A stretch of 64,000 nucleotides of DNA from Pseudomonadota bacterium (GTDB taxonomy: Bacteria; Pseudomonadota; Gammaproteobacteria; Burkholderiales; Methylophilaceae): assembly GCA_020053735.1 (NCBI GenBank), contig JAGVMP010000004.1, forward strand, positions 57,407 to 121,406. Reading direction: 5' to 3'. The notes beneath the pieces were generated by a model. That model was given only the letters and a program-made list of their open reading frames with translations, searched no databases and was not told the origin of the DNA. Both the position numbers and the translations under genes were made by a program. Below are positions 7,389-57,260 of this stretch, piece by piece. Within the stretch, counting starts at the first letter, position 1, and each line of letters starts with the position of its first letter.

Positions 7389-8543
7389 TTAACCTCTGCC
7401 GCGATTTCTATCGTTTTTCTTTTGCATAGCTGGCGCATTTGGCAGATCGCCACGAATGCGCCTTTTACTCGGTCTAGATCCTGATTTAGATATAGTATTT
7501 TTATCGATGCCATGCGAGCCAGTATTCATACGGCCTGCAGGCCTGCTATCTTCTCTCGTGTTTGAATCACGCGGTTTTCTATTGCTTGGGTCTCTATCTA
7601 AAACACTGCTGCGTTGCTTGCGCACTTTAGGCACAAACACGCTGGTGGCTTTATCTTTTTCGCGCTGACTCAACTGCTTCATCGGCGTTCTTGGCACTTC
7701 CAAGCCTGCCCATTCCAGCAAATCCACTACTTGTTTTTGTTCTAACTTCAACATCGTGCCGCGCTTCACGCGTGGCGGCAAATTGACGGGACCAAAACGT
7801 ACGCGCATCAAACGGCTTACTGGCAGTTGAAACGCCTCAAACAAACGCCTTACTTCGCGATTCCTGCCTTCGCGAATAATCACCTGATACCAATGATTGG
7901 CGCCCTCGCCGCCTTGCGGCGAAATGCTGTCAAAACTGGCTGGGCCATCCTCTAGTTCAATACCTTGCGTCAGTGTCAGCATTTGGCCTTCGGTCAGTTC
8001 ACCAAAAATACGCACTGCATATTCCCGCTCTACCTCATAGCGTGGATGCATAAAACGGTTGGCCAACTCTCCAGAATTGGTAAAAATCAGCAAGCCGCTG
8101 GTATTGATATCCAGCCGTCCAATCGCAATCCATTTGCCTTGCTTGATGCGCGGCAGCTTATCGAATACGCTAGCGCGGCCTTCTGGGTCGTCCTGGCTGA
8201 CGATTTCACCCTCAGGCTTGTGGTAAATCAGCACTTGCGGCAGCTCTGGTTCAAAATTTAATTTAAGCGGGCGGCTATCCACACGCACCACATCGTATTG
8301 CGTCACACCTTGGCCAGGTTTGGCGGTTTCGCCATTTATGGTGACGCGGCCGCTGGCAATCATTTCCTCCATATCGCGGCGCGAGCCTAAACCCGCCAAA
8401 GCCATCAGCTTGTGTAAGCGCTGTGTGGGTTCTGCTGGAGTTAAACTTAGCCCGTTCTCGTCGACTTCTAATTTTTTAAAATCAGTCTTTGGTCTGCGTG
8501 GGGTGGCTTGTGGGTCGCGCTGCTGTTTGAATGGACGTGCCAT
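7389..8543 (-). CDS. rluB: 23S rRNA pseudouridine synthase RluB-type
   Basis: S4 domain then GRLDINTSGLLIFTN and EGRNREVRRLF; basic C-terminal tail; next to scpB/scpA. Confidence 0.92.
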   Translation of the reverse strand: MARPFKQQRDPQATPRRPKTDFKKLEVDENGLSLTPAEPTQRLHKLMALAGLGSRRDMEEMIASGRVTINGETAKPGQGVTQYDVVRVDSRPLKLNFEPELPQVLIYHKPEGEIVSQDDPEGRASVFDKLPRIKQGKWIAIGRLDINTSGLLIFTNSGELANRFMHPRYEVEREYAVRIFGELTEGQMLTLTQGIELEDGPASFDSISPQGGEGANHWYQVIIREGRNREVRRLFEAFQLPVSRLMRVRFGPVNLPPRVKRGTMLKLEQKQVVDLLEWAGLEVPRTPMKQLSQREKDKATSVFVPKVRKQRSSVLDRDPSNRKPRDSNTREDSRPAGRMNTGSHGIDKNTISKSGSRPSKRRIRGDLPNAPAMQKKNDRNRGRG

Positions 8544-10006: not shown

Positions 10007-10339
10007 TTAATGAACCACTGATTTAGAAAACACGTTAATCACAACCGCACCCGCAATAATCAAACCCATGCCGACAATGGCGGGCATATCCAACACTTGC
10101 CGATACACCACCCAGCCAATAATCGACACCAGCACAATGCCCATGCCCGACCAAATGGCATACATAATGCCCACCGGCAGCACACGCATACTTAGCGCCA
10201 TAAAATAAAACGCTGTGCCATAACCCACCACCACAATGAGTGAAGGCCATAACCGTGTAAACTCGTTAGACGCTTTCAGTGCGGTGGTGCCAACCACTTC
10301 TGCGACGATTGCGATGGCAAGTGCTACCCAATGATTCAT
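10007..10339 (-). CDS. Small multidrug resistance (SMR/EmrE-like) transporter
   Basis: Four-TM protein with AEVVGTTALKAS and YAIWSGMGIVLVS; likely start at MNHWVAL (10339). Confidence 0.88.
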   Translation of the reverse strand: MNHWVALAIAIVAEVVGTTALKASNEFTRLWPSLIVVVGYGTAFYFMALSMRVLPVGIMYAIWSGMGIVLVSIIGWVVYRQVLDMPAIVGMGLIIAGAVVINVFSKSVVH

Positions 10340-10373
10340 CGTTTCCTTGTTAAACATTTACACTAAAAAACAT

Positions 10374-10414
10374 ATGCCCTACAACCCGCATGGATATTGG
10401 CTCACAGAGCATCT
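10374..10414. repeat. ~40-bp palindromic dispersed repeat, complete copy
   Basis: atgccctacaacccgcatggatattggctcacagagcatct. Confidence 0.65.
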
Positions 10415-10484
10415 ATTATCTATTATTTTTAGATATAAATATATCTTTTGTATATGAAGGCAAGCGCCATCCCCTCCGCACAAT

Positions 10485-17525: not shown

Positions 17526-20500
17526 ATGTCTAATTCTTTAGCTAAATCTTCTTCCAACGCACACTTTTTAAGCTTTCGTGGTAGCCCTGCTTTATCTGCA
17601 TTTCGGCTGGATAAATTACATGCATCCTTAAAAAAATCTGCACCAAACATAGTCAATATTAATACTGAGTTCGTACATTTTGTATTTAGCAACGCAGTAT
17701 TAAGCAAAGCTGAGCAAAGCACTTTAAAACAAATTTTAACCTATGGTGCGCATACTGATGCTCTGCAGGCCAATATCCATGCGGTCTCTGGCGACATAAA
17801 AAATGATTCTAAGCAAAAATCACTATATTTAGTTATTCCACGCATTGGCACCATTTCACCATGGGCATCTCGTGCCACCGATATTGCCAACAACTGTGGC
17901 TTAGGAAGCATTTTACGTATTGAACGCGGCATTGCGTTTTATGTGGAAAGCAGTGGCGAACTAAATGAAAGTGAAAACACCGCACTAAAAGCCGCCATTC
18001 ACGACCGTATGACAGAAACGGTATTGAGCGATCTAAACGATGCCGAAAAACTCTATCACCATGCAGAGCCAAAACCGTTGAGCAGCGTCGATATTTTACA
18101 AGGTGGTGCGACCGCATTAAACGCAGCCAATAGCGACATGGGTTTGGCGCTGTCACCCGACGAAATAGACTATTTGGTAGAGAACTTTAGCAAAATTGGC
18201 CGCAACCCAACGGATGTGGAATTGATGATGTTTGCGCAAGCCAACTCGGAGCATTGTCGCCATAAAATTTTTAACGCCGACTGGGTGATTGATGGTGAAC
18301 AGCAAGATATTAGTCTGTTTGGCATGATACGTAACACGCATAAACTTAACCCTGGTCACACTGTTGTTGCCTATTCTGATAATTCTTCCATTGTAGCTGG
18401 GCAAAAAACGCAGCGCTTTTATCCCAACTCAAATGGCGAATACAGCTTTAATGAAGACGAAATGCACTACCTGATGAAGGTGGAAACGCATAACCACCCT
18501 ACTGCTATTTCGCCTTTTGCGGGCGCGGCCACAGGAGCGGGAGGTGAGATTCGTGACGAAGGTGCGACAGGAATTGGCTCTAAACCTAAGGCGGGCTTAA
18601 CTGGCTTTTCCGTATCTAACTTAAACATTCCAAACTTTGCACAACCGTGGGAGAAGCCATACGGTAAACCTGGCCGAATCGCCACACCGTTGCAAATCAT
18701 GACCGATGGCCCACTCGGTGGGGCCGCCTATAACAATGAATTTGGTCGCCCCAATATTGCAGGCTACTTCCGCACATTTGAGCTAGAGAATAATGGCGAA
18801 GTGCGTGGTTATCATAAACCCATCATGCTGGCAGGCGGTGTAGGCAATATTTCAGCCAGTCACTCACATAAAAATGCAATTCCGGCAGGCGCAGCCCTCA
18901 TTCAACTGGGCGGCCCTGCCATGTTAATCGGTTTGGGCGGCGGCGCGGCCAGCAGCATGGATACAGGCAGCAATACCGAGAATTTAGATTTTGATTCGGT
19001 ACAACGTGGCAACCCAGAGTTGCAACGTCGTGCGCAAGAAGTGATAGACCGTTGCTGGCAACTGGGCGAGAAAAACCCAATTCTGAGCATTCACGACGTC
19101 GGTGCGGGCGGCATTTCCAACGCCTTCCCTGAATTGGTGAATGACGCCAAAGTGGGCGCAAAGTTTGATTTGCGCAATGTGCATAACGAAGAACCTGGCA
19201 TGAGTCCAAGAGAGTTATGGAGTAACGAGGCGCAAGAGCGTTACGTCATGGCAGTGCTACCAGAGAATTTAGCAGCATTTAAAGCCATATGTGAACGCGA
19301 ACGCGCACCCTTCGCCATTGTAGGTTACGCCACTTCAGAACGTCATTTAACGGTGGCGGATAGCCATTTTGGTAACAAACCTGTGGACATGGAGTTAAGC
19401 GTATTACTGGGCAAACCACCCAAAATGACACGCGACGTGAAAAGGGTTGCCAAAAAATTAAGCACTTTTGATACGAGCAAAATCGACTTCAAAGACGCTG
19501 CAGCGCGTGTGTTAAGGCTACCAGGCGTGGCGGATAAAACATTTCTGATTACGATTGGCGACCGCACGGTTACGGGACTAATCGCACGTGACCAAATGGT
19601 GGGGCCGTGGCAAGTGCCTGTGGCCGATGTGGCCGTCACGCTAGCTGGCTACCAAACCTACGCAGGAGAAGCCTTTGCCATTGGCGAAAAGGCGCCGCTG
19701 GCACTGATTAACGCGCCTGCCTCTGGCCGTATGGCGATTGGTGAAGCAATCACCAACATCGCTGCTGCGCAAATTGATGACATTAGCAACTTAAAACTTT
19801 CCGCAAACTGGATGGCGCCTGCAGGACATGCGGGTGAAGACGCTGCACTATTTGCAACCGTAAAAGCGGTGGGCATGGAACTGTGCCCAGCACTGGGAAT
19901 CAGCATTCCTGTCGGCAAAGACTCAATGAGCATGAAGACGGTGTGGAACGAAGATGGCCTAGATAAAGCGGTCACTTCCCCCATCTCTTTAGTTGTCACT
20001 GCCTTTGCTAATATAACCGATGCGCGTAAAACTCTAACTCCGCAGTTGAGGACAAGTTTTTCTAATCAAAACCTGGCTAATCAAAACCTGGGTGAAACCA
20101 AGCTCATTTTAATTGATTTAGGCAATGGCAAGAACCGTTTAGGTGGTAGCAGTTTGGCTCAGGTATACAACCAAATTGGCAACGAAGCGCCCGATGTTGA
20201 TTCACCCGAACAATTAAAAGCGTTTTTTGCAGAAATTCAAAAGTTAAATGCTGAGAATAAAATTTTAGCGTATCACGACCGCAGTGACGGCGGCTTGTTT
20301 ACCACGCTTTGCGAAATGGCATTTGCTGGCAGATGTGGTCTGCAAGTCACCATAAATAATACTAATGGTAATGCACTTGCTAGCGATATCGTCAGTGCAC
20401 TATTTAATGAGGAATTAGGCGCAGTTATTCAAGTGCGCGCCAGTGAAGCCGATGCAATTTTGGCGCAATTGAATCAACACTTAAGTGCACATATTATTGG

Positions 20501-21539
20501 TGCAGTGACCACTGAGAATGCAATCAATATCACCTCTAATGGCCAAACAGTGTTTGCAGACACTCGCGTGAATTTACATAGAATGTGGTCTGAAACCACT
20601 TATCACATGCAAAGCCTGCGCGATAACCCTGCATGTGCGCAACAAGAGTATGACCGCATTTTAAACACTGCTGATGTTGGCTTAAATGTGCATACCACAT
20701 TTGATATTGACGACGACTTGGGAATTAAGTCTAGCGCACCATATTTAAATTTAAGCCGTCCCAAAATGGCAATTTTGCGCGAACAAGGCGTCAATGGCCA
20801 AGTGGAAATGGCGTCTGCATTTGACCGCGCAGGCTTTGCCACATTTGATGTGCATATGAGCGACATTATCAGTGGGCGAACATCACTTAAAGATTTTGCT
20901 GGTTTTGTAGCCTGCGGTGGCTTTAGCTATGGCGATGTACTAGGCGCTGGTGAAGGCTGGGCAAAGTCCATTTTATTTAACGCCAGAGCGAATGAAGAAT
21001 TCAGTGCATTTTTTAACCGCACCGATTCATTCGCGCTAGGCGTATGCAATGGCTGCCAAATGATGAGCAACTTGCACAGCATTATCCCTGGCAGTGCACA
21101 CTGGCCGCACTTTGTTAAAAATAAATCTGAGCAGTTTGAAGCGCGCTTTGCCATGGTGGAAGTATTAGAATCGCCCTCACTGTTTTTTAATGGCATGGCT
21201 GGGAGCCGCATGCCTATTGCCGTTGCGCATGGTGAAGGTTTTGCGGAATTTTCTAGCGCAAGTGCTGTCAATAGCGTGTTAGAAAAAAAATTGGTTACGA
21301 TGCGCTTTATAGCACCAACATCTGGTGCGTCAACGCCAACCGAAGTCTACCCGTTTAATCCTAACGGCTCGCCACAAGGGATTACTGGCTTAACTAGCAC
21401 AGATGGGCGTTTTAGTATTATGATGCCGCATCCCGAGCGAGTATACCGCTCGGTACAGCATTCATGGTATCCTGACGATTGGCAAGAAGATGCGCCTTGG
21501 ATGCGGATGTTCCGAAATGCAAGAAAATTTGTCGCTTAA
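17526..21539 (+). CDS. purL: Phosphoribosylformylglycinamidine synthase
   Basis: 1337-aa large PurL with AIRS-like repeats and C-terminal glutaminase ([17 protein letters not shown]). Confidence 0.97.
20062..20091. repeat. Perfect 15-bp x2 in-frame tandem duplication in purL
   Basis: ctaatcaaaacctgg repeated twice; protein [10 protein letters not shown]. Confidence 0.95.
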
Positions 21540-26630: not shown

Positions 26631-27422
26631 TTGAGCGAATTACGTCAGTTGGCCTTAACCTGGCTTTGTGAATGCAATGCCTCAAACAAAGCTGCTGGGG
26701 TTTTATCTTTAGGTAAAATTCTTGATTATAGAATCGTCACAGACCAATATCCATGCGGCTACCAGAGCATCTTAAATACAATCCCAGGCCGACCAAACAA
26801 ACCTGAATTAGTCGCACCGCTCTTGCTGCCCAAACGCAGCATGCGCACTGCAGAAGGCCGCGCTGCACTGATTCACGCCCTCGCCCACATTGAATTCAAC
26901 GCCATTAACTTGGCGCTGGATGCGATTTGGCGTTTTGGCAATATGCCCGAAAACTATTACACCGATTGGCTAAAAGTCGCGATTGAAGAAGCTTATCATT
27001 TCTCGCTTTTAAACGCACATTTGAAAACGTTGGGTTATGCATACGGCAGCTTCAGTGGTCACAATAGCTTATGGGAAATGGTAGATAGAACTAAGGATGA
27101 TGTGCTTGCGCGCATGGCTTTAGTGCCGCGCACCATGGAAGCGCGTGGTCTAGATGCCAGCCCAGAATTGCGCAACAAATTTGCGCAAATAGACGATTTA
27201 GCAATGGCTGAAATTTTAGATATTATTTTGCGCGACGAAATTGGCCATGTGGCGATTGGTAATCACTGGTTTAACTGGCTTTGCAACGAACGAAAATTAG
27301 AACCAATCGCCACTTTTAAACAACTATGCCAACAATATAGCGCACCAAAATTAAAACCGCCATTTAATCTAGAAGCCAGAAGACTCGCTGGATTTACCGA
27401 AGCTGAATTGGCTTTGCTTTAG
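26631..27422 (+). CDS. DUF455 ferritin-like protein
   Basis: AHIEFNAINLALDA, KVAIEEAYHFSLL, RDEIGHVAIGNHWF Glu/His ligands; TTG start. Confidence 0.85.
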   Translation: MSELRQLALTWLCECNASNKAAGVLSLGKILDYRIVTDQYPCGYQSILNTIPGRPNKPELVAPLLLPKRSMRTAEGRAALIHALAHIEFNAINLALDAIWRFGNMPENYYTDWLKVAIEEAYHFSLLNAHLKTLGYAYGSFSGHNSLWEMVDRTKDDVLARMALVPRTMEARGLDASPELRNKFAQIDDLAMAEILDIILRDEIGHVAIGNHWFNWLCNERKLEPIATFKQLCQQYSAPKLKPPFNLEARRLAGFTEAELALL

Positions 27423-29334: not shown

Positions 29335-29466
29335 AAAGCTGGTTAATCACGTGTGAAAAACAGATGCCCTGCAAGCCTCATGGATATTGGCTTTCACGCA
29401 TGAATAACCAGCTTTAGCTGGTATATTCTGCGGGGACAACCCTTGCGGTTGCAGGGCATCTGTTTT
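29335..29466. repeat. Interleaved inverted repeats (A-B-A'-B') in a convergent intergenic region
   Basis: A 29335-29358 / A' 29392-29415 (21/24); B 29357-29374 / B' 29449-29466 (18/18); extra hairpin ccagct-tt-agctgg 29408-29421. Confidence 0.8.
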
Positions 29467-29499
29467 AATGATTTAAAATCTAATGATTTTAAATATCGA

Positions 29500-33417: not shown

Positions 33418-35025
33418 ATGAAAATAGCTATCGGTCAAATCAATGCCATGGTTGGCGACATCGCTGGCAATGCCAACAAAATACTAGACTTTGCTAACCG
33501 TGCACAACAAGCTGGCGCCAGCCTGATAGTAACGCCAGAACTCGCTTTGTGTGGTTACCCCCCAGAGGATTTATTGTTTCGTGATGACTTTAAACAGGCC
33601 TGCAAACAAGCACTGAAGCGGCTTGCAGAGCAGGTAAAAAATATCTCCCTATTAGTTGGCCACCCGCATGTTGAAAATGGCCATTTATACAATGCAGCTT
33701 CGCTCATCGAAAATGGCAAAATCCAAGCTACTTATCACAAACAATGCCTGCCTAATTACAGCGTGTTTGATGAAGAGCGTTATTTTGAAGCGGGTGATAC
33801 ACCGTTAGTATTTAATCACCAAGGCGCGCAATTTGGCGTCATAATATGCGCGGATGGCTGGGAGTCTTGGCCTGCGATGAAAGCCAAACAAGCAGGTGCA
33901 GAATTTTTGCTCTCGCTTAACGCCTCGCCTTACCATATGGACAAACTAGAGACGCGCTACGAGGTGATTGCCGAGCGCGCAAGAGAAACAGGCTTGCCCA
34001 TTATTTACGCTAATTTAGTCGGCGGCCAAGATGAGCTAGTGTTTGATGGCGCCTCATTCGTGTTAGATGGCACTGGTAAGCTGACGCAGCAACTACCTAG
34101 CTTTGTAGAGTCCTTAAGTTACGTTGATATCCTCAATCATCAGCCAGTTAAAGCTGCAATACCACCCACACTTAGCCTTGAAGCCTCCGTCTACCTTGCG
34201 CTTAAGCTGGGCTTAGCAGATTATGTCAATAAAAATGGTTTTCCTAGTATTGTATTAGGCTTATCTGGTGGCATCGATTCTGCACTTACATTAGCGATAG
34301 CAGTAGATGCGCTTGGCGCTTCAAGAGTGAAAGTGGTGTTGATGTCATCCGAGTTTACCGCCAGCATGAGTGTAGGTGATGCCGTAGAAATGGCGAATTT
34401 GGTCGGCGTTCAATACAGCCAATTGCCCATTAAAGATTTATTTGAGCTTTTTCGTAAGACTTTGGCGCCTGAGTTTGGTGATTTGCCTTTTGACACCGCA
34501 GAGGAAAATTTGCAAGCGCGTATCCGCGGCATGTTGCTGATGGCGCTCAGCAATAAATTTGGCAGTATTGTGCTGACGACTGGCAATAAATCAGAAATGG
34601 CGGTGGGCTACAGCACACTGTATGGCGACATGGCGGGCGGGTTCTCGTTATTGAAAGACGTGCCTAAAACGCTGGTGTACAAACTGGCTGAATATCGCAA
34701 TAGTCTTTCCAAAGTGATTCCAGAACGCATTATCACGCGTGCGCCCAGCGCCGAACTGCACGCCAACCAAACCGACCAAGATAGCCTACCATCTTACGAA
34801 ATTTTAGACGCCATTATGCAAGCGTATGTGGAAGAAGATTTAAGCCGCAGCGCCATTGTTAAACTTGGATTTTCTGAAAAAGATGTCAACCGCGTTACAA
34901 ATTTAATAGACCGCAACGAATATAAGCGCCGCCAAGCGCCAGTTGGGGTTAGAATTACGCAAAGAGGATTTGGTAAAGATAGGCGTTATCCGATAACATG
35001 TAAATTAAAATTTAATAATCAGTAA
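33418..35025 (+). CDS. nadE: Glutamine-dependent NAD+ synthetase
   Basis: N-terminal nitrilase amidotransferase (CGYPPEDLLFRDDF) plus LGLSGGIDSALT ATP-PPase. Confidence 0.95.
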   Translation: MKIAIGQINAMVGDIAGNANKILDFANRAQQAGASLIVTPELALCGYPPEDLLFRDDFKQACKQALKRLAEQVKNISLLVGHPHVENGHLYNAASLIENGKIQATYHKQCLPNYSVFDEERYFEAGDTPLVFNHQGAQFGVIICADGWESWPAMKAKQAGAEFLLSLNASPYHMDKLETRYEVIAERARETGLPIIYANLVGGQDELVFDGASFVLDGTGKLTQQLPSFVESLSYVDILNHQPVKAAIPPTLSLEASVYLALKLGLADYVNKNGFPSIVLGLSGGIDSALTLAIAVDALGASRVKVVLMSSEFTASMSVGDAVEMANLVGVQYSQLPIKDLFELFRKTLAPEFGDLPFDTAEENLQARIRGMLLMALSNKFGSIVLTTGNKSEMAVGYSTLYGDMAGGFSLLKDVPKTLVYKLAEYRNSLSKVIPERIITRAPSAELHANQTDQDSLPSYEILDAIMQAYVEEDLSRSAIVKLGFSEKDVNRVTNLIDRNEYKRRQAPVGVRITQRGFGKDRRYPITCKLKFNNQ

Positions 35026-36354: not shown

Positions 36355-36425
36355 TTGGGTATCTGTTCTAAGGCTATGCGAGACAGTATACACAAGGCTT
36401 GCAGGGCATTATTGTTTGCAATGGC

Positions 36426-41315: not shown

Positions 41316-43790
41316 TCAGTATTTATCGTGCCAGTAACGTGGCTGGCTCTGGCGCAAAGCATTCACGCTGATATTATTTATTCGCGTAAAATCTAGTGTC
41401 AGCGCACCTTGGAAGTCAGATCGATGAATCAGCGCGCCACTTTCCTCATACCGCTTCTCTATCAATGGCTTGGGATGTTTAAAGCGGTTTAAATAACCCA
41501 CAGTAAAAATAACATGCTGCGCGCTAACCGCTTGCACAAATTCGCGTGTTGAGGAGGTTTTACTGCCATGATGCGGCACAATGAGCACGTCACTTTTTAA
41601 GCGAGAGAAAATATCTTCTCCCGAAGCCTTATCTACATTGGCTTGCAGGGCAGTATCTTCGATAACATCTTCAAAAAGTGCATTTTCTGCCTCTTTTTCG
41701 ATATCTCCTGTTAATAGCAGACTGCCGAATTGGCTGCTCACCTTCACCACACAACTGCGATTATTGTCTTTAATATTGGCGTTTTCATAGCTGGCTAAAG
41801 TTGGCGCAAGCACTTCAAATTTCACTTGATCCCACAACCACGTTTGGCCTGCAAAGCATCGTATTGATTTTTTCGTACTGATTTCATGCAAGTTATTATC
41901 CATGCCGAATGAGCTTATCAACCAAGTCACAGGCAACTGTGCTAGCACTGACGTCGCGCCACCACTGTGGTCAGCATCATCGTGACTCACGATAAAACCA
42001 TCCAATTTTTTAATGCCGACTCCACGCAAAAACGGCACCACAATGCGACTGCCCGCATCGCTCTGTGTCGAAAAACGTGGTCCAGCATCATACAAAAATG
42101 TGTGATCTCTAGTTTGCACCACCACCGCCAAACCTTGACCGACATCTAACACCGTCGCGCGCATTTCACCTTTGGCAAGTTTGGCGGGACTGACAAAAAA
42201 TAGAGGCAGAAACAAAATGAAGCCTAACCAACGTTGTGGAAAACCACGCGGTAACAGCAGCCAAAGTACACCGAGTACTGCCAATAGCAGCGCCCAAATA
42301 GGCGGCGCAGCCTGTTGCCAAGTGGGTAAGTCTGATAAAAACACTAAGCCCTGCATGCATATTTCCAAAACGAAATGCGCCGCATGTAAAATAAAATCGA
42401 CAGGCATCAAGCTGCCCAAAATGGACAATGGCACGACCAATAAGCTGATGACAGGAATTGCAAATGCGTTAGCAACGGGCGAAATAATGGAAGCTTGACC
42501 GAACATCACGATGAGCAAAGGTAGTAACCCAAGCGTAATCGCCCACTGTGTATGAACTGCAGTTTTAAACGCAGAAAACGGCTTTAAGCGCCCTACCGTG
42601 ATGTAAGCAATTAAAGCCACCGCACCAAACGACAGCCAGAATCCAGGTGCAATTACCGCCCAAGGATCAACCATCACCACAACTAACACAGCTATAGCTA
42701 AGGCGCGCGAAATGGCCAAATTTCGCCCAAATAATAACGCTATGGCAAAGGTAGTGAGCATCAACAAGGTACGCTGTGTGGGTACTGACATGCCCGCCAG
42801 TAGTGCATAAACAACAGCGACCAGCAAACCTGCAATGGTGGCAACTTTGCGCGCAGGCATGTGCATGACTAAACTGGGAACTCGCCGCCATATAAAACTA
42901 GCCATGGCAAACGCCAACCCTGCCAGCATGGTAATGTGCAGCCCAGAAATACTGACGAGATGATTCACGCCCGTGCGCAGAAATACATTCCACTGATCTT
43001 GGGTAATTTGGCTATCATCCCCTACCACCAGCGCACGAATCACACCAGCGTAAGGCTTATTTTCCAGAGTTTGTGAAATTCGACTGCCGACTTTTTCGCG
43101 CAGATTTTCTACCACATACGTTGGCCGCCACACAAAATTGGTAAGCTTTTTATAGCCGCTCTTACTATGAACACTGCCAGTGGCACGCATATTTTCGGCC
43201 AAAGCCCACGCTTCGAAATCGAAACCATGTGGATTGTAAGTGGTATGCGGACGTTTCAAACGAATGGTAAATTGCCAACGCTCGCCAGCATGAAAATGGT
43301 TGCTGGCACTTGGCGCATTTTCTGGCCTTGGCGACTTCACATTGCGATAAAAATTAAGTGAAATATGCTGTGGGACATGTATTTGATTGAATGGTGCTTG
43401 CGGCGTCAGAATCTTTTCCACATCAAACTTAAAGCGCTCGCCACGCTCGGTGACCTCTGGCAAACTCGCTACAACGCCAATCACATTGATGCTTTTTTGC
43501 TGCCAATCTTTGGGCAACTCATCGCTTAATCGAACAGCTGCAACATTGGCAGCCCATACAAAACCCAGCAAACCTGCAACGAGCAGGTTGCCAAGGTTTT
43601 TTAAGACTTTTTGATTTACACCAAGCTGATGTAGTGAACGATTAAAATAAATTAAAATGGCAAGGCTGGGAGCCAATATCCATAAGGCTTGCAGGCCAAT
43701 GAAAATACTAGGGAAATAACTATCATAAAGACTGGGCTGTTGTTGCAACAACCAAGCGCCAAACACAAACCCCAGCGCAACTAACACCAT
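41316..43790 (-). CDS. comEC: DNA internalization-related competence protein ComEC/Rec2
   Basis: HLVSISGLHITMLAG competence domain; C-terminal metallo-beta-lactamase DVGQGLAVVVQT, SHDDADHSGG, VPHHGSKTSS. Confidence 0.94.
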   Translation of the reverse strand: MVLVALGFVFGAWLLQQQPSLYDSYFPSIFIGLQALWILAPSLAILIYFNRSLHQLGVNQKVLKNLGNLLVAGLLGFVWAANVAAVRLSDELPKDWQQKSINVIGVVASLPEVTERGERFKFDVEKILTPQAPFNQIHVPQHISLNFYRNVKSPRPENAPSASNHFHAGERWQFTIRLKRPHTTYNPHGFDFEAWALAENMRATGSVHSKSGYKKLTNFVWRPTYVVENLREKVGSRISQTLENKPYAGVIRALVVGDDSQITQDQWNVFLRTGVNHLVSISGLHITMLAGLAFAMASFIWRRVPSLVMHMPARKVATIAGLLVAVVYALLAGMSVPTQRTLLMLTTFAIALLFGRNLAISRALAIAVLVVVMVDPWAVIAPGFWLSFGAVALIAYITVGRLKPFSAFKTAVHTQWAITLGLLPLLIVMFGQASIISPVANAFAIPVISLLVVPLSILGSLMPVDFILHAAHFVLEICMQGLVFLSDLPTWQQAAPPIWALLLAVLGVLWLLLPRGFPQRWLGFILFLPLFFVSPAKLAKGEMRATVLDVGQGLAVVVQTRDHTFLYDAGPRFSTQSDAGSRIVVPFLRGVGIKKLDGFIVSHDDADHSGGATSVLAQLPVTWLISSFGMDNNLHEISTKKSIRCFAGQTWLWDQVKFEVLAPTLASYENANIKDNNRSCVVKVSSQFGSLLLTGDIEKEAENALFEDVIEDTALQANVDKASGEDIFSRLKSDVLIVPHHGSKTSSTREFVQAVSAQHVIFTVGYLNRFKHPKPLIEKRYEESGALIHRSDFQGALTLDFTRINNISVNALRQSQPRYWHDKY

Positions 43791-43794
43791 ACTG

Positions 43795-44472
43795 CTAGGC
43801 GCTAAATTGTGTCAGCTTGCCATCTTCGAGCCGATATTGCCGCTGCATTTTGGCCGCCAGTGCCAAGTCATGGGTAACGACAACTAAGCTAGTATGTTGC
43901 GCTTGGTTAATCTCCAATAGTAAATCAAACACTTGGTTAGCGGTGACGCGGTCTAAATTGCCGGTTGGCTCATCTGCCAAGATACAGGCGGGTTGGGTGA
44001 CAAGCGCTCTGGCCAGAGCAGCACGTTGCCGCTCTCCCCCTGAAAGCTCACCTGGCATATGCTCCAAGCGATGCGCCAAGCCCACTTTTTCCAGCATGAC
44101 TTTTGCACTTGCTAAAGCCTGCTCGCTAGACAAGCGGCGAATTAACAAAGGCATTGCGACGTTTTCAATCGCAGTGAATTCTGGCAACAAGTGATGGAAC
44201 TGATAGACGAAACCCAGCGCCTGATTTCTAAGTGCGCCTTTTTGTGCCTCGTTTAATTGGCTTAAATTTTTGTCCATCAATGCTACGCTACCACTACTAG
44301 GTGCATCTAAGCCGCCCAATAAGTGTAGCAGCGTGCTTTTGCCCGAACCTGAAACCCCGACAATGGCAATTTGCTCTCCTGCACTTATCTGCAAATCAAT
44401 CCCGTTAAGCACCGCCACATCTAAGCCGGTGTAGGTTTTGCACAAGTTTTGGCAGGTAATAATATTACTCAT
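43795..44472 (-). CDS. lolD: Lipoprotein-releasing ABC transporter ATP-binding protein
   Basis: [43 protein letters not shown]; start at [10 protein letters not shown] (44472). Confidence 0.93.
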
Positions 44473-44485
44473 AGCAAAATCTCTC

Positions 44486-44623
44486 AAAATGATGCGTTTG
44501 AGATGCAGTGCGAGGCGCACGGAGCGCAGAAGTTGAGATAGTACGGGGTTGTACATCGAAGCTGTGAAGACTTAAATTAAACGTCTCGCGCAACGAAGTC
44601 AATGCGCTCAAAATCATCATTTT
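44486..44623. repeat. Inverted-repeat-bounded intergenic element, copy 3
   Basis: aaaatgatgcgtttgag (44486-44502) pairs with ctcaaaatcatcatttt (44607-44623), 15/17; apex gtacggggttgtac. Confidence 0.7.
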
Positions 44624-51173: not shown

Positions 51174-52179
51174 CCCGCAACTTGATATCGATGGTAAATT
51201 AAAGCACCTGCTAACCATTGAAGGTCTGCCAAAACGGATACTTAACCAAATTTTAGATACCGCTGAGACTTTTGTGGGGGTAGCAGAACGCGACATCAAA
51301 AAAGTGCCCCTACTGCGCGGCAAAACCGTATGCAATATCTTTTTTGAAAACAGTACCCGCACCCGCACCACCTTTGAAATTGCCGCCAAAAGATTATCTG
51401 CAGATGTGATTAATCTGAATGTAGGCACCTCCAGCCAATCTAAAGGCGAAACCATTCTCGACACGGTGGACAACCTTATCGCCATGCATGCCGATATGTT
51501 TGTGGTGCGCCATGCACAAAGCGGTGCGGCACATTTTATTGCGCAACATGTACCCGACAACATTAGCGTCATCAACGCTGGCGATGGTCGCCACGCACAT
51601 CCTACGCAAGGATTATTAGATGTATTCACCGTGCGTCGCTATAAGCCAGACATGCACAACTTACGCGTCGCCTTGGTGGGCGACGTATTACATTCAAGAG
51701 TTGCGCGCAGTGAGATTCATGCGCTGACCACATTGGGCGTACCTGAAGTACGCGTGATTGCACCCAAAACTTTGCTGCCCGCTGATGTAGAAAAATTAGG
51801 CGTGCAAGTGTTTCACGATATGAAAAACGGCCTAAAAGATGTGGATGTAGTGATGATGCTACGCCTGCAAAATGAGCGAATGACTGGTGCGTTGCTACCT
51901 AGCGCGCAAGAATATTTTAGAACTTTTGGCTTAACTCAAGAAATGTTAAACCACGCCAAAAATGACGCAATAGTCATGCACCCCGGCCCGATGAATCGTG
52001 GCGTGGAAATTGATTCTAGCGTGGCAGATGGCAGCCAGTCTGTCATCTTGCCGCAAGTGACCTACGGTATTGCGGTGCGCATGGCGGTGATGGCAATCCT
52101 TGGCGGCAGGCAATCTGCTGGAGAGAGAAATACTGCCCTGCAAGCCGCATCTAGCATGGCTCCGGGAGGCATATCTTGA
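51166..52179 (+). CDS. pyrB: Aspartate carbamoyltransferase catalytic subunit
   Basis: [39 protein letters not shown]. Confidence 0.96.
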
Positions 52180-53453
52180 AGATTCATATTAAAAATGGCC
52201 ATGTGATTGACCCAAAAAATAACCTTAATTCCAAAAAAGACGTGTTCGTGGCCGCAGGTAAAATTGCCAGCATAGGTAACGCGCCTGATGGCTTTATTGC
52301 CAACCAAACCATTGATGCTGCGGGTTTAGTTGTCAGCCCTGGTTTTGTCGATTTAAGTGCAAGGCTACGCGAACCAGGCTCTGAATACACTGCCACGCTA
52401 AAAACTGAGCTGCAAGCGGCGATAGCAGGCGGCATTACCAGCTTGGCATGCCCACCAGACACGACACCTGTGTTAGACGAGCCAGGTTTAGTAGAGATGC
52501 TAAAACATCGCGCCAAATTACTCAATTTAGCGCATGTATACCCACTTGGCGCATTGACCAGAAGATTAGAAGGTAAATTGCTGACTGAAATGAACGCACT
52601 CAGCAATGCTGGCTGCGTAGGCTTTAGCCAAGCAGATAACGCCATGACTGATACCTTAGTGCTTTGGCGCGCATTTGAATACGCAGCCACGTTTGGTTAC
52701 ACCATATTCTTACGCGCCGAAGATTATTACTTAGCCCAAAACGGCGTTGCACACGATGGCGAAATTGCTAGTCGACTCGGGCTAAAAGGTATCCCTGCTG
52801 CTGCAGAAAGTTTAGCTATCGCCAGCATTTTACGCATTGCACAGCAAACCAATACGCGTATTCACCTGTGCAGAATTTCCAGTGCAGAAGGTGTTGAATT
52901 GATACGCGCCGCAAAGAAAAATGGCGTGCAAGTAAGTGCCGATGTAAGCACACAACATTGCCATTTAACTGAAATGGATATTGGCTATTTTAATGCGCAC
53001 GCCAACCTTAAACCGCCGCTACGTTCAACCCGCGACAAAAACGCGCTGTGCCAAGGCCTAAAAGATGGCACCATAGACGCCATATGCTCAGACCATACGC
53101 CAGTGAATGATGACGCCAAACTACTGCCTTTTGCCGAGGCTGAGGCTGGCGCATCAGGGTTAGAGCTATTATTGCCACTTGCACTCAAGTGGGCTGTGGA
53201 CAATAAAGCCAGCGTGGCTGACGCCATTGCAAAAATTACCAGCCACCCCGCACACATTTTAAACATCGCGGCGGGCGATTTAAGTGTAAACGCTAATGCG
53301 GATATTGCCATCTTCAACCCTCAGGCCGAGTGGAAAGTACAAGCTAGCCAGCTAAAAAGCCAAGGCAAAAACACGCCGTTTTTAGGGCAAAGCATGCTTG
53401 GACAGATACAGTATACCTTGCTAAATGGACAACTAAGCTTTCAAAAAAATTAA
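52176..53453 (+). CDS. Dihydroorotase-like protein, probably non-catalytic (PyrC'/PyrX)
   Basis: DHOase fold with [11 protein letters not shown] (metal HxH lost), [14 protein letters not shown]; overlaps pyrB by 4 nt. Confidence 0.9.
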
Positions 53454-55001: not shown

Positions 55002-56141
55002 CTAAACCATGCCTAGATGGTCTAAGCCAGCAGATAAATCCTTGTCTTTAGCGCCCTGGCCTTCCAGCTTAATTTTCAGACGTATATCATTGACAGAATC
55101 TGCATTACGCAGGGCCTCTTCGTAACTAATTGCGCCTGATTCATGCAGATCAAACAATGCCTGGTCGAATGTCTGCATACCCAACTCTCTTGACCGTCCA
55201 ATAATTTCTTTAATCTCGTGCACATCGCCTTTAAAAATTAAATCTGAAATCAGTGGCGAATTAAGCATAATTTCAATGGCTGCAGAGCGTCCTATACCAT
55301 CAGCATTTGGAATCAATCGCTGTGAAATAAATGCACGCGTGTTTAGCGACAAATCCATCAGCAGTTGATGTCTGCGCTCTTCGGGGAAGAAATTAATAAT
55401 ACGATCCAGCGCTTGATTGGTACTATTTGCATGCAATGTAGCTAGGCATAAATGACCAGTTTCGGCAAAGGCAATTGCATAATCCATGGTTTCACGATCA
55501 CGAATCTCGCCAATCAAAATCACATCGGGCGCTTGGCGCAGGGTATTTTTCAGTGCAATAGCCCAGCCATCGGTATCCACCCCCACTTCACGCTGAGTAA
55601 TAATGCAATTAATGTGTTCATGCACAAACTCCACGGGATCTTCAATGGTAATAATGTGCCCATAGCTATTTTGATTACGGTAGCCCACCATAGCAGCGAG
55701 TGAGGTCGATTTACCAGAGCCCGTACCACCAACAAAGATCACCAAACCGCGTTTGGTCATGGCTATATCTTTTAGCACTTCTGGTAAGCCCAAATCCTCA
55801 AACTTAGGGATTTTAGTGGTGATAGTTCTAAACACCATGCCCACTGAGCCACGTTGCACAAATGCATTCACACGAAAACGCGCCACTCCAGGCAAACCAA
55901 TGGCAAAATTACATTCGTTACTGGCGTCAAATTCTGCCGTTTGCTTATCATTCATTACCGAGCGCGCAATCTCACGTGCCTGTTGTGCCGATAATACTTG
56001 CGAACTCACCGGCGTCATTTTGCCATCTATCTTCATGGCTGGCGGAAAACCCGCAGTGATAAACATATCAGAGGCTTTTTTGCTCAGCATCAATCGCAAT
56101 AAATCAAATACAAACTTTTCGGCCTGACCTTTTTCCATCAT
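55002..56141 (-). CDS. pilU: Type IV pilus twitching ATPase PilU
   Basis: FVGGTGSGKSTSLAAMVGYRN, GEIRDRETMDYAIAFAETGHLCLATLHANS. Confidence 0.94.
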   Translation of the reverse strand: MMEKGQAEKFVFDLLRLMLSKKASDMFITAGFPPAMKIDGKMTPVSSQVLSAQQAREIARSVMNDKQTAEFDASNECNFAIGLPGVARFRVNAFVQRGSVGMVFRTITTKIPKFEDLGLPEVLKDIAMTKRGLVIFVGGTGSGKSTSLAAMVGYRNQNSYGHIITIEDPVEFVHEHINCIITQREVGVDTDGWAIALKNTLRQAPDVILIGEIRDRETMDYAIAFAETGHLCLATLHANSTNQALDRIINFFPEERRHQLLMDLSLNTRAFISQRLIPNADGIGRSAAIEIMLNSPLISDLIFKGDVHEIKEIIGRSRELGMQTFDQALFDLHESGAISYEEALRNADSVNDIRLKIKLEGQGAKDKDLSAGLDHLGMV

Positions 56142-56160
56142 TTAATCCTAAATATTAATA

Positions 56161-56199
56161 TGCCCCAGGAGTCAATATCCATGCGGCTTGCAGAGCATC
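56161..56199. repeat. ~40-bp palindromic dispersed repeat between pilT and pilU
   Basis: tgccccaggagtcaatatccatgcggcttgcagagcatc. Confidence 0.65.
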
Positions 56200-56216
56200 A
56201 ATAAAATAACCAAAAA

Positions 56217-57260
56217 TTAACCAATAATCGAATCTTTATTGGCCGCCTTGCCACGCGCTTCATTGGCAGAGATCACATTGCGGCGCACCAAATCTTGTAA
56301 GTTTTGATCCAGCGTCTGCATACCGATATTCTGACCCGTTTGAATCGACGAGTACATTTGTGCCACTTTATTTTCACGAATCAAGTTACGAATCGCTGGC
56401 GTACCAATCATAATTTCGTGCGCAGCCACGCGGCCTTGTTCATCTTTGGTTTTGCACAAAGTTTGCGAAATAACTGCACGCAATGATTCCGATAACATCG
56501 AGCGCACCATTTCTTTTTCCGCAGCCGGGAAAACATCAACGATACGGTCAACCGTTTTTGCAGCTGAGCTAGTATGTAGCGTACCAAACACCAAATGGCC
56601 GGTTTCTGCGGCAGATAACGCCAATCTAATGGTTTCCAAGTCACGCATCTCACCCACCAAAATTACATCAGGGTCTTCACGTAGAGCACTTCGTAGCGCG
56701 TTTTGAAATGACAGGGTGTGCGGGCCTACCTCACGCTGGTTGATCAAGCACTTTTTACTGGTATGCACAAACTCAATCGGGTCTTCAACGGTAAGAATGT
56801 GTCCCATTTCATTTTCGTTAATGTAATCCACCATCGCAGCTAGAGTCGTCGATTTTCCTGAACCCGTAGGGCCAGTCACCAACACAATACCACGTGGCGT
56901 GTCGGCAATCTCTTTAAAAATGGGCGGGCAGTTTAACTGCTCTAGTGTTAAAATTTTAGACGGAATGGTCCGAAACACTGCGCCAGAGCCGCGATTATGA
57001 TTAAACGCGTTAACCCGAAAACGGGCTAAATTGGGGATTTCAAACGAAAAATCACATTCCAGCGTTTCCTCGTATACCTTGCGCTGACCATCATTCATGA
57101 TGTCGTACACCATATCGTGTACTTGCGTATGATCCATCGATGGCACGTTGATTTTGCGCACGTCACCGTGCACGCGAATCATTGGCGGCAGGCCTGCTGA
57201 GAGGTGCAAATCTGAAGCTTTATTCTTCACCGAAAACGCGAGTAAATCTGAAATATCCAC
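56217..57260 (-). CDS. pilT: Type IV pilus retraction ATPase PilT
   Basis: VTGPTGSGKSTTLAAMVDYIN, GEMRDLETIRLALSAAETGHLVFGTLHTSSAAKT. Confidence 0.95.
   Translation of the reverse strand: MDISDLLAFSVKNKASDLHLSAGLPPMIRVHGDVRKINVPSMDHTQVHDMVYDIMNDGQRKVYEETLECDFSFEIPNLARFRVNAFNHNRGSGAVFRTIPSKILTLEQLNCPPIFKEIADTPRGIVLVTGPTGSGKSTTLAAMVDYINENEMGHILTVEDPIEFVHTSKKCLINQREVGPHTLSFQNALRSALREDPDVILVGEMRDLETIRLALSAAETGHLVFGTLHTSSAAKTVDRIVDVFPAAEKEMVRSMLSESLRAVISQTLCKTKDEQGRVAAHEIMIGTPAIRNLIRENKVAQMYSSIQTGQNIGMQTLDQNLQDLVRRNVISANEARGKAANKDSIIG

Follow-up and report, generated by a model that had tools for sequence, protein, structure and literature searches.

A long palindromic word dispersed in one Methylotenera clade may work like a DNA-uptake sequence

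Self-recognizing DNA-uptake words are, to our knowledge, known from two families, the Neisseriaceae (DUSs) and the Pasteurellaceae (USSs). These words are 10 to 12 nt long and occur in thousands of copies per genome; neisserial DUSs are evenly spaced, and the Haemophilus USS carries A/T tracts at fixed offsets. It has long been disputed whether such words spread by point mutation, recombination, drive or selection. Neisserial DUSs occur at a density of roughly one per 1.1 kb (PMC2397512), form inverted pairs that act as terminators and can lie opposite gaps in relatives (PMC2397512, PMC3630211). Among dispersed palindromes of other kinds, REP repeats sit at convergent 3' ends and also inside genes, with CGTC-type REPs lacking a dedicated transposase (PMC3733652), and Rickettsia palindromic elements (RPEs) are insertions of ~150 bp (PMC10969869).

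The Methylotenera word described here resembles DUSs and USSs in its abundance on both strands, its in-place origin within genes, its gains facing gaps in relatives and its inverted pairs at gene ends, where termination is predicted from placement. It also has A/T tracts at fixed offsets, as the Haemophilus USS does, and pilus and ComEC genes are present in the window. Unlike those words, it is palindromic and ~40-53 bp long rather than 10-12 nt, and it numbers ~100-400 copies rather than thousands; its role in uptake is proposed from sequence. With the GTAG/CGTC REP palindromes it shares a small size, a position at 3' ends and in convergent gaps, and some intragenic copies, but it has no end tag, its genome has no RAYT, its loop is conserved, its arms do not covary and it arose in place in several genes. 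Like an RPE, it is a reading-frame-compatible palindrome found in unrelated housekeeping genes in a preferred frame; unlike an RPE, it brought no gain in length to about half of the gene copies examined.

The window, by which we mean the whole 64-kb stretch of DNA analyzed (C10:57407-121406), comes from a 2.44-Mb genome, G000, that is 99.99% complete, and its pilT gene matches Methylotenera and other Methylophilaceae best. An earlier note on this DNA had reported a palindrome at 10374-10414 with related copies at 29362-29393 (+) and 56161-56199 (-). The palindrome was found as described and is a real repeat, and both related copies are present, at ~29363 (+) and 56161-56199 (-). The note's partial copies inside genes fared unevenly: those in comEC (two), purL and an RluB-like gene held up, along with a weak one in nadE and one with a broken core in pyrB, whereas matches at 18940, 21193, 49235, 52957 and 57717 proved to be ancestral coding sequence, equal in length in every relative compared, and were rejected as copies. 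All copies retained are listed in the table.

Copies of the word in the window (coordinates are window positions)
Feature	Position	Strand	Context
RluB-like copy	7500..7552	-	C-terminal linker of RluB-like pseudouridine synthase gene (7389-8543, -)
Full copy	10367..10419	+	best score, 63.8 bits; 10 bp upstream of SMR-family gene (10007-10357, -)
purL copy	17751..17803	-	inside purL (17526-21539, +)
Degenerate copy	26725..26777	-	probably upstream of true start of gene called at 26841-27422
Long composite form	29357..29470	+	between convergent genes; same arms and core, extra ~57-bp module at 29385-29441
Weak nadE copy	33588..33640	-	21 bits; inside nadE (33418-35025, +)
Degenerate copy	36364..36416	-	syntenic word in G162 and G171, core oppositely oriented
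Degenerate comEC copy	41608..41660	+	orientation opposite to gene
comEC copy	43654..43706	-	N-terminal region of comEC (41316-43790, -)
Partial pyrB copy	52120..52180	+	last codons of pyrB; left arm intact, core broken
pilT-pilU copy	56153..56205	-	between pilT (56217-57260, -) and pilU (55002-56141, -)

The repeat unit spans ~53 bp and is made up of an A/T tract, TGCYCTGCARGCC, an asymmetric 11-bp core (GCATGGATATT, or TTATGGATATT as an alternative), GGCTTGCAGRGCA and a second A/T tract. In a profile of 98 aligned copies, conserved information extends from -13 to +39 relative to the left arm with nothing conserved outside, the core, which forms the loop, is the best-conserved part, and A/T tracts of either polarity sit symmetrically around it. 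The arms are symmetric and lie one helical turn apart. Neither a GTAG nor a CGTC end tag appeared in the position profile, and an Rfam search with the word gave no match above threshold. Among the aligned copies we found no covariation between the arms and no compensatory changes in the stem, and linkage between positions is local only. These two properties argue against a hairpin that is maintained at the RNA level or copied whole as a single palindrome (selection on an RNA or ssDNA hairpin was rejected on the missing covariation), and they would fit two half-words evolving separately. A weight matrix of 53 positions, built from 94 genome copies, found 10 sites above 18 bits in the window and none above 14 bits in three Markov-3 shuffles. 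The word holds ~52 bits of information, against 13.6 needed to locate ~380 sites; matrix and search pattern are partly circular, so that the ~52 bits are partly ascertainment, and 19.7 bits fall outside the search pattern.

The earlier note had proposed comparing genome-wide copy number with background and presence at orthologous loci among relatives, and both comparisons bore it out. By pattern searches and fetched stretches, on which all genome counts rest, TGCARGCCNNATGGATATTGGCT with up to 3 mismatches occurs at 126 places in the Methylotenera genome (61 on the plus and 65 on the minus strand), against none for the reversed control. The right half-word, an 18-mer, has 203 matches (103 and 100 on the two strands) against a control of 0. 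The word is thus over-represented on both strands, as would be expected of a DUS or USS, at a density of about one per 6-20 kb. On contig C14, where the set is sparse, spacing is no more even than random, and even spacing of the neisserial type was rejected on that set.

We surveyed the word's distribution in 187 Methylophilaceae genomes. Ten species of the window's genus carry the full word in abundance (14-126 copies), and five species of the same genus nearly lack it (0-2 copies); the five word-poor species group together in a tree built from Pth and Ddl after masking of the word region. Elsewhere in the family, the full word is abundant in a few genomes (225 copies in G140, 60 in G127, 33 in G128 and 22 in G078), and copy number is patchy from genome to genome. 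Word-moderate species have more half-words than full palindromes (55 vs 16 in G164, 60 vs 15 in G168). Enriched k-mers in relatives showed no clear dominant alternative word. A phage- or plasmid-borne repeat was rejected, since exact matching against IMG/VR viral contigs and BLAST against PLSDB plasmids both found nothing.

At the orthologous positions of individual window copies, the relatives differ. The copy at 10367 has orthologues in G162 and G171, where the flanks are no longer alignable; the neighboring SMR (small multidrug-resistance)-family gene is apparently absent at the syntenic position in G162, where the adjacent palindrome is kept. At the site of the composite form, G161, G171 and G172 have unrelated terminator-like hairpins in place of the word. 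The degenerate comEC copy is present in G162, and G171 has a shorter related sequence. The opposite core orientation seen in G162 and G171 at 36364-36416 could reflect either an inversion or an independent gain. In nadE, length at the weak copy is equal in all relatives, pointing to an in-place origin.

Placement was assessed for 94 copies, with genes called by a home-made hexamer gene caller. Gaps between convergent genes hold 33 of them and divergent gaps 1 (P = 4e-9); 29 lie in co-directional gaps, 23 are intragenic, 4 straddle a gene end and 4 fall at the edge of a locus. Intergenic copies sit 10-60 nt past stop codons, and the co-directional ones mostly 10-45 nt past the upstream stop. 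Their stem-loops are stronger than those of intragenic copies (P = 5e-4), and T tracts tend toward the transcribed strand. Judged by placement and hairpins, the copies between genes probably terminate transcription in both directions. As REP repeats and inverted pairs of neisserial DUSs are placed likewise, placement alone leaves the nature of the word undecided.

About a quarter of the copies are intragenic. The core has no stop codon in any of its six frames, and 18 of the 23 intragenic copies share one codon phase (P = 1e-5), which reads ALQANIHAA or ALQAAWILA. Host genes encode GltX, GluQ, Ddl, Pth, Fmt, FolC, PrmC, RecJ, RNase R, PurL, PyrB and ComEC, some of these names having been read from sequence alone. 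For ddl and for pth alike, the 15 orthologues aligned from across the genus show no indel at the word; matrix scores, below 0 in the word-poor species, climb to 50-56 bits in the word-rich species. At this place in Ddl, the word-poor clade has GGLKAAYELAAKAD, and the word-rich clade shows a series that passes through GGLEAAYILASKAD and GALQAAYILACRAD and ends in GGLQPAWILAAKAD, the matrix scores going from below zero to 50 bits. By parsimony, the Ddl word gained 23.5 bits on one internal branch and 18.9 bits on the next, and changes on terminal branches are mostly away from the word, as in erosion. In these alignments, the word in ddl and pth clearly appears to have arisen at the site itself through more than one step, with single changes that, so reconstructed, are not uniformly toward the word; because changes at the tips run mostly away from it, any drive would have acted most strongly in the stem lineages rather than continuously. 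Compared with solved homologues (distant ones for all the following except Ddl and Pth), Ddl, Pth, Fmt, PrmC, RecJ and an epimerase show no change in length, an in-place origin of the kind known for DUSs and USSs, and GltX (long form), GluQ and FolC are longer. Together with PurL and PyrB, these last three are the host proteins with a gain in length, such as an in-frame insertion of the RPE type would bring.

Other gains are element-sized. G000 and G162 have the pilT-pilU copy and G161 has a diverged one; it is absent from G171, G164, G165, G160 and Methylophilaceae bacterium 11, and the stretch is ~55 bp shorter in G171 and G164 than in word-bearing genomes. The purL copy amounts to ~14 extra codons (~42 bp) in G000 and G162, is degenerate in G161 and is absent from G164, G165, G171, G172 and G173. 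The pyrB gene of G000 has gained a clean 45 bp over that of G162, and GGAG may be duplicated there. These insertion-like gains span 42-58 bp and suggest that the word can also be acquired in one piece. Such arrivals are what a non-autonomous mobile palindrome of the MITE, REP or RPE type would produce if it inserted ~45-58 bp, was tolerated at gene ends and in frame within genes, and was mobilized by a separate enzyme. The lengthened GltX, GluQ and FolC, the patchy copy number, the REP-like placement at convergent and 3' ends and a motif of ~52 bits where 13.6 would suffice also speak for this reading. Against it stand the unchanged lengths of ddl and pth in 15 species and of Fmt, PrmC, RecJ and the epimerase, together with the arms that do not covary and the profile that lacks either REP tag. 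The MITE features are the inverted arms and a single possible target-site duplication, the 4 bp in pyrB, with no consistent one elsewhere. The transposase search covered the Y1 family: a Y1_Tnp (RAYT-type) search of genome G000 returned 0 matches, so mobilization of the RAYT/REP kind was rejected, and across genomes copy number does not track Y1 presence. A full transposon with these ends was rejected as well, in that unpaired GATGCYCTGCAA sites, read out over 50-110 bp, proved to be degenerate words, words embedded in genes or the ~57-bp module. On balance, we regard a mobile palindrome as an unlikely origin, though one to be kept in mind.

Two further readings take the word for a binding site or for a terminator. 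Symmetric arms one helical turn apart, flanked by A/T tracts of either polarity, would suit binding sites for a chromosomal protein (a nucleoid organizer, a topoisomerase recruiter or a termination factor), as would a core kept at orthologous sites whose flanks can no longer be aligned and a preference for convergent regions, where supercoiling accumulates. Such sites should, however, need far less information than the word holds, even with part of that figure being ascertainment; the ~52 bits thus favor a copying or drive process over plain binding-site selection. A sister clade of the same genus does without the sites, and the amino-acid changes accepted in essential enzymes would demand strong selection per site, making the binding-site reading improbable. 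That the word amounts to a set of intrinsic bidirectional terminators and nothing more seems very improbable: stem-loops with A and T tracts 10-60 nt past stops in both orientations, stronger between genes than within them, are as expected of terminators, but the loop is the best-conserved part, which ordinary terminators do not need, the stem shows no compensatory changes, and the quarter of copies inside genes, some of them formed in place, disfavors it.

Of the three options raised in the earlier note (a mobile repeat, an uptake-type word and a protein-binding site), the uptake-type word fits best and the mobile repeat is retained. What decides for the former is in-place substitution without indels in several essential genes, which a transposing unit does not explain. 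We thus favor, at a probability of roughly 0.4, the reading that molecular drive built up a genome-wide word in one Methylotenera clade, where it would work like a DNA-uptake sequence. In the proposed mechanism, a type IV pilus competence receptor would bind the word (pilT, pilU and comEC all lie in the window), DNA carrying it would be taken up preferentially, recombination would fix the alleles bearing it, and single words and inverted pairs would persist where harmless or useful as terminators. Uptake with recombination would explain the in-place origin, the presence on both strands, the codon phase and the gains opposite gaps, as well as the inverted pairs at gene ends and the absence from phage and plasmid collections. 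Counting against a DUS are the spread of information over ~53 bp and a density far from one short word per kilobase; given this low density and long word, we say that it works like a DUS, not that it is one. The wider proposal, of an independently evolved, clade-wide uptake-word system in Methylotenera, outside the Neisseriaceae and Pasteurellaceae, long, bipartite and palindromic, that rewrote parts of essential enzymes and furnished a set of terminators too, is one we put forward with considerable reserve. If the drive reading is true, a young, clade-limited word with word-free sister species and intermediates in essential genes would allow its spread to be traced stepwise. If the word is a mobile palindrome instead, its entry into essential genes without a change in their length makes it an uncommon kind.

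Several other repeats were observed alongside the word. The ~57-bp module TTTCACGCATGAATAACCAGCTTTAGCTGGTATATTCTGCGGGGACAACCCTTGCGG (window 29385-29441; L249-L278) lies between core and right arm in some copies and occurs in 45 of the 187 Methylophilaceae genomes; several of these occurrences are at the tips or inside the stems of unrelated palindromes, including the CGTCATTCCCGC type. It gave no Rfam match in the loci tested, and it has a small 3' hairpin (ACC-NNNNN-GGT) with seemingly compensatory variation. In PrmC (L176:1026-1997, +), the in-place word is accompanied by FPRRRESN...RLRGNDE, an in-frame segment such as CGTCATTCCCGC repeats encode. A second dispersed repeat of ~70 bp (window 44498-44568), at the end of the open reading frame at 43795-44556, has matches in several genomes of the genus. 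The 8-mer TGACCAAA, unrelated to the word, is over-represented in the window (17 vs 4 expected). In other genomes (L034:1264 and 8730 (-); L266), the same arms GCYCTGCRAGCC surround a different core, TTGTAAATAAA or TTTATTTACAA, in the manner of a dialect.
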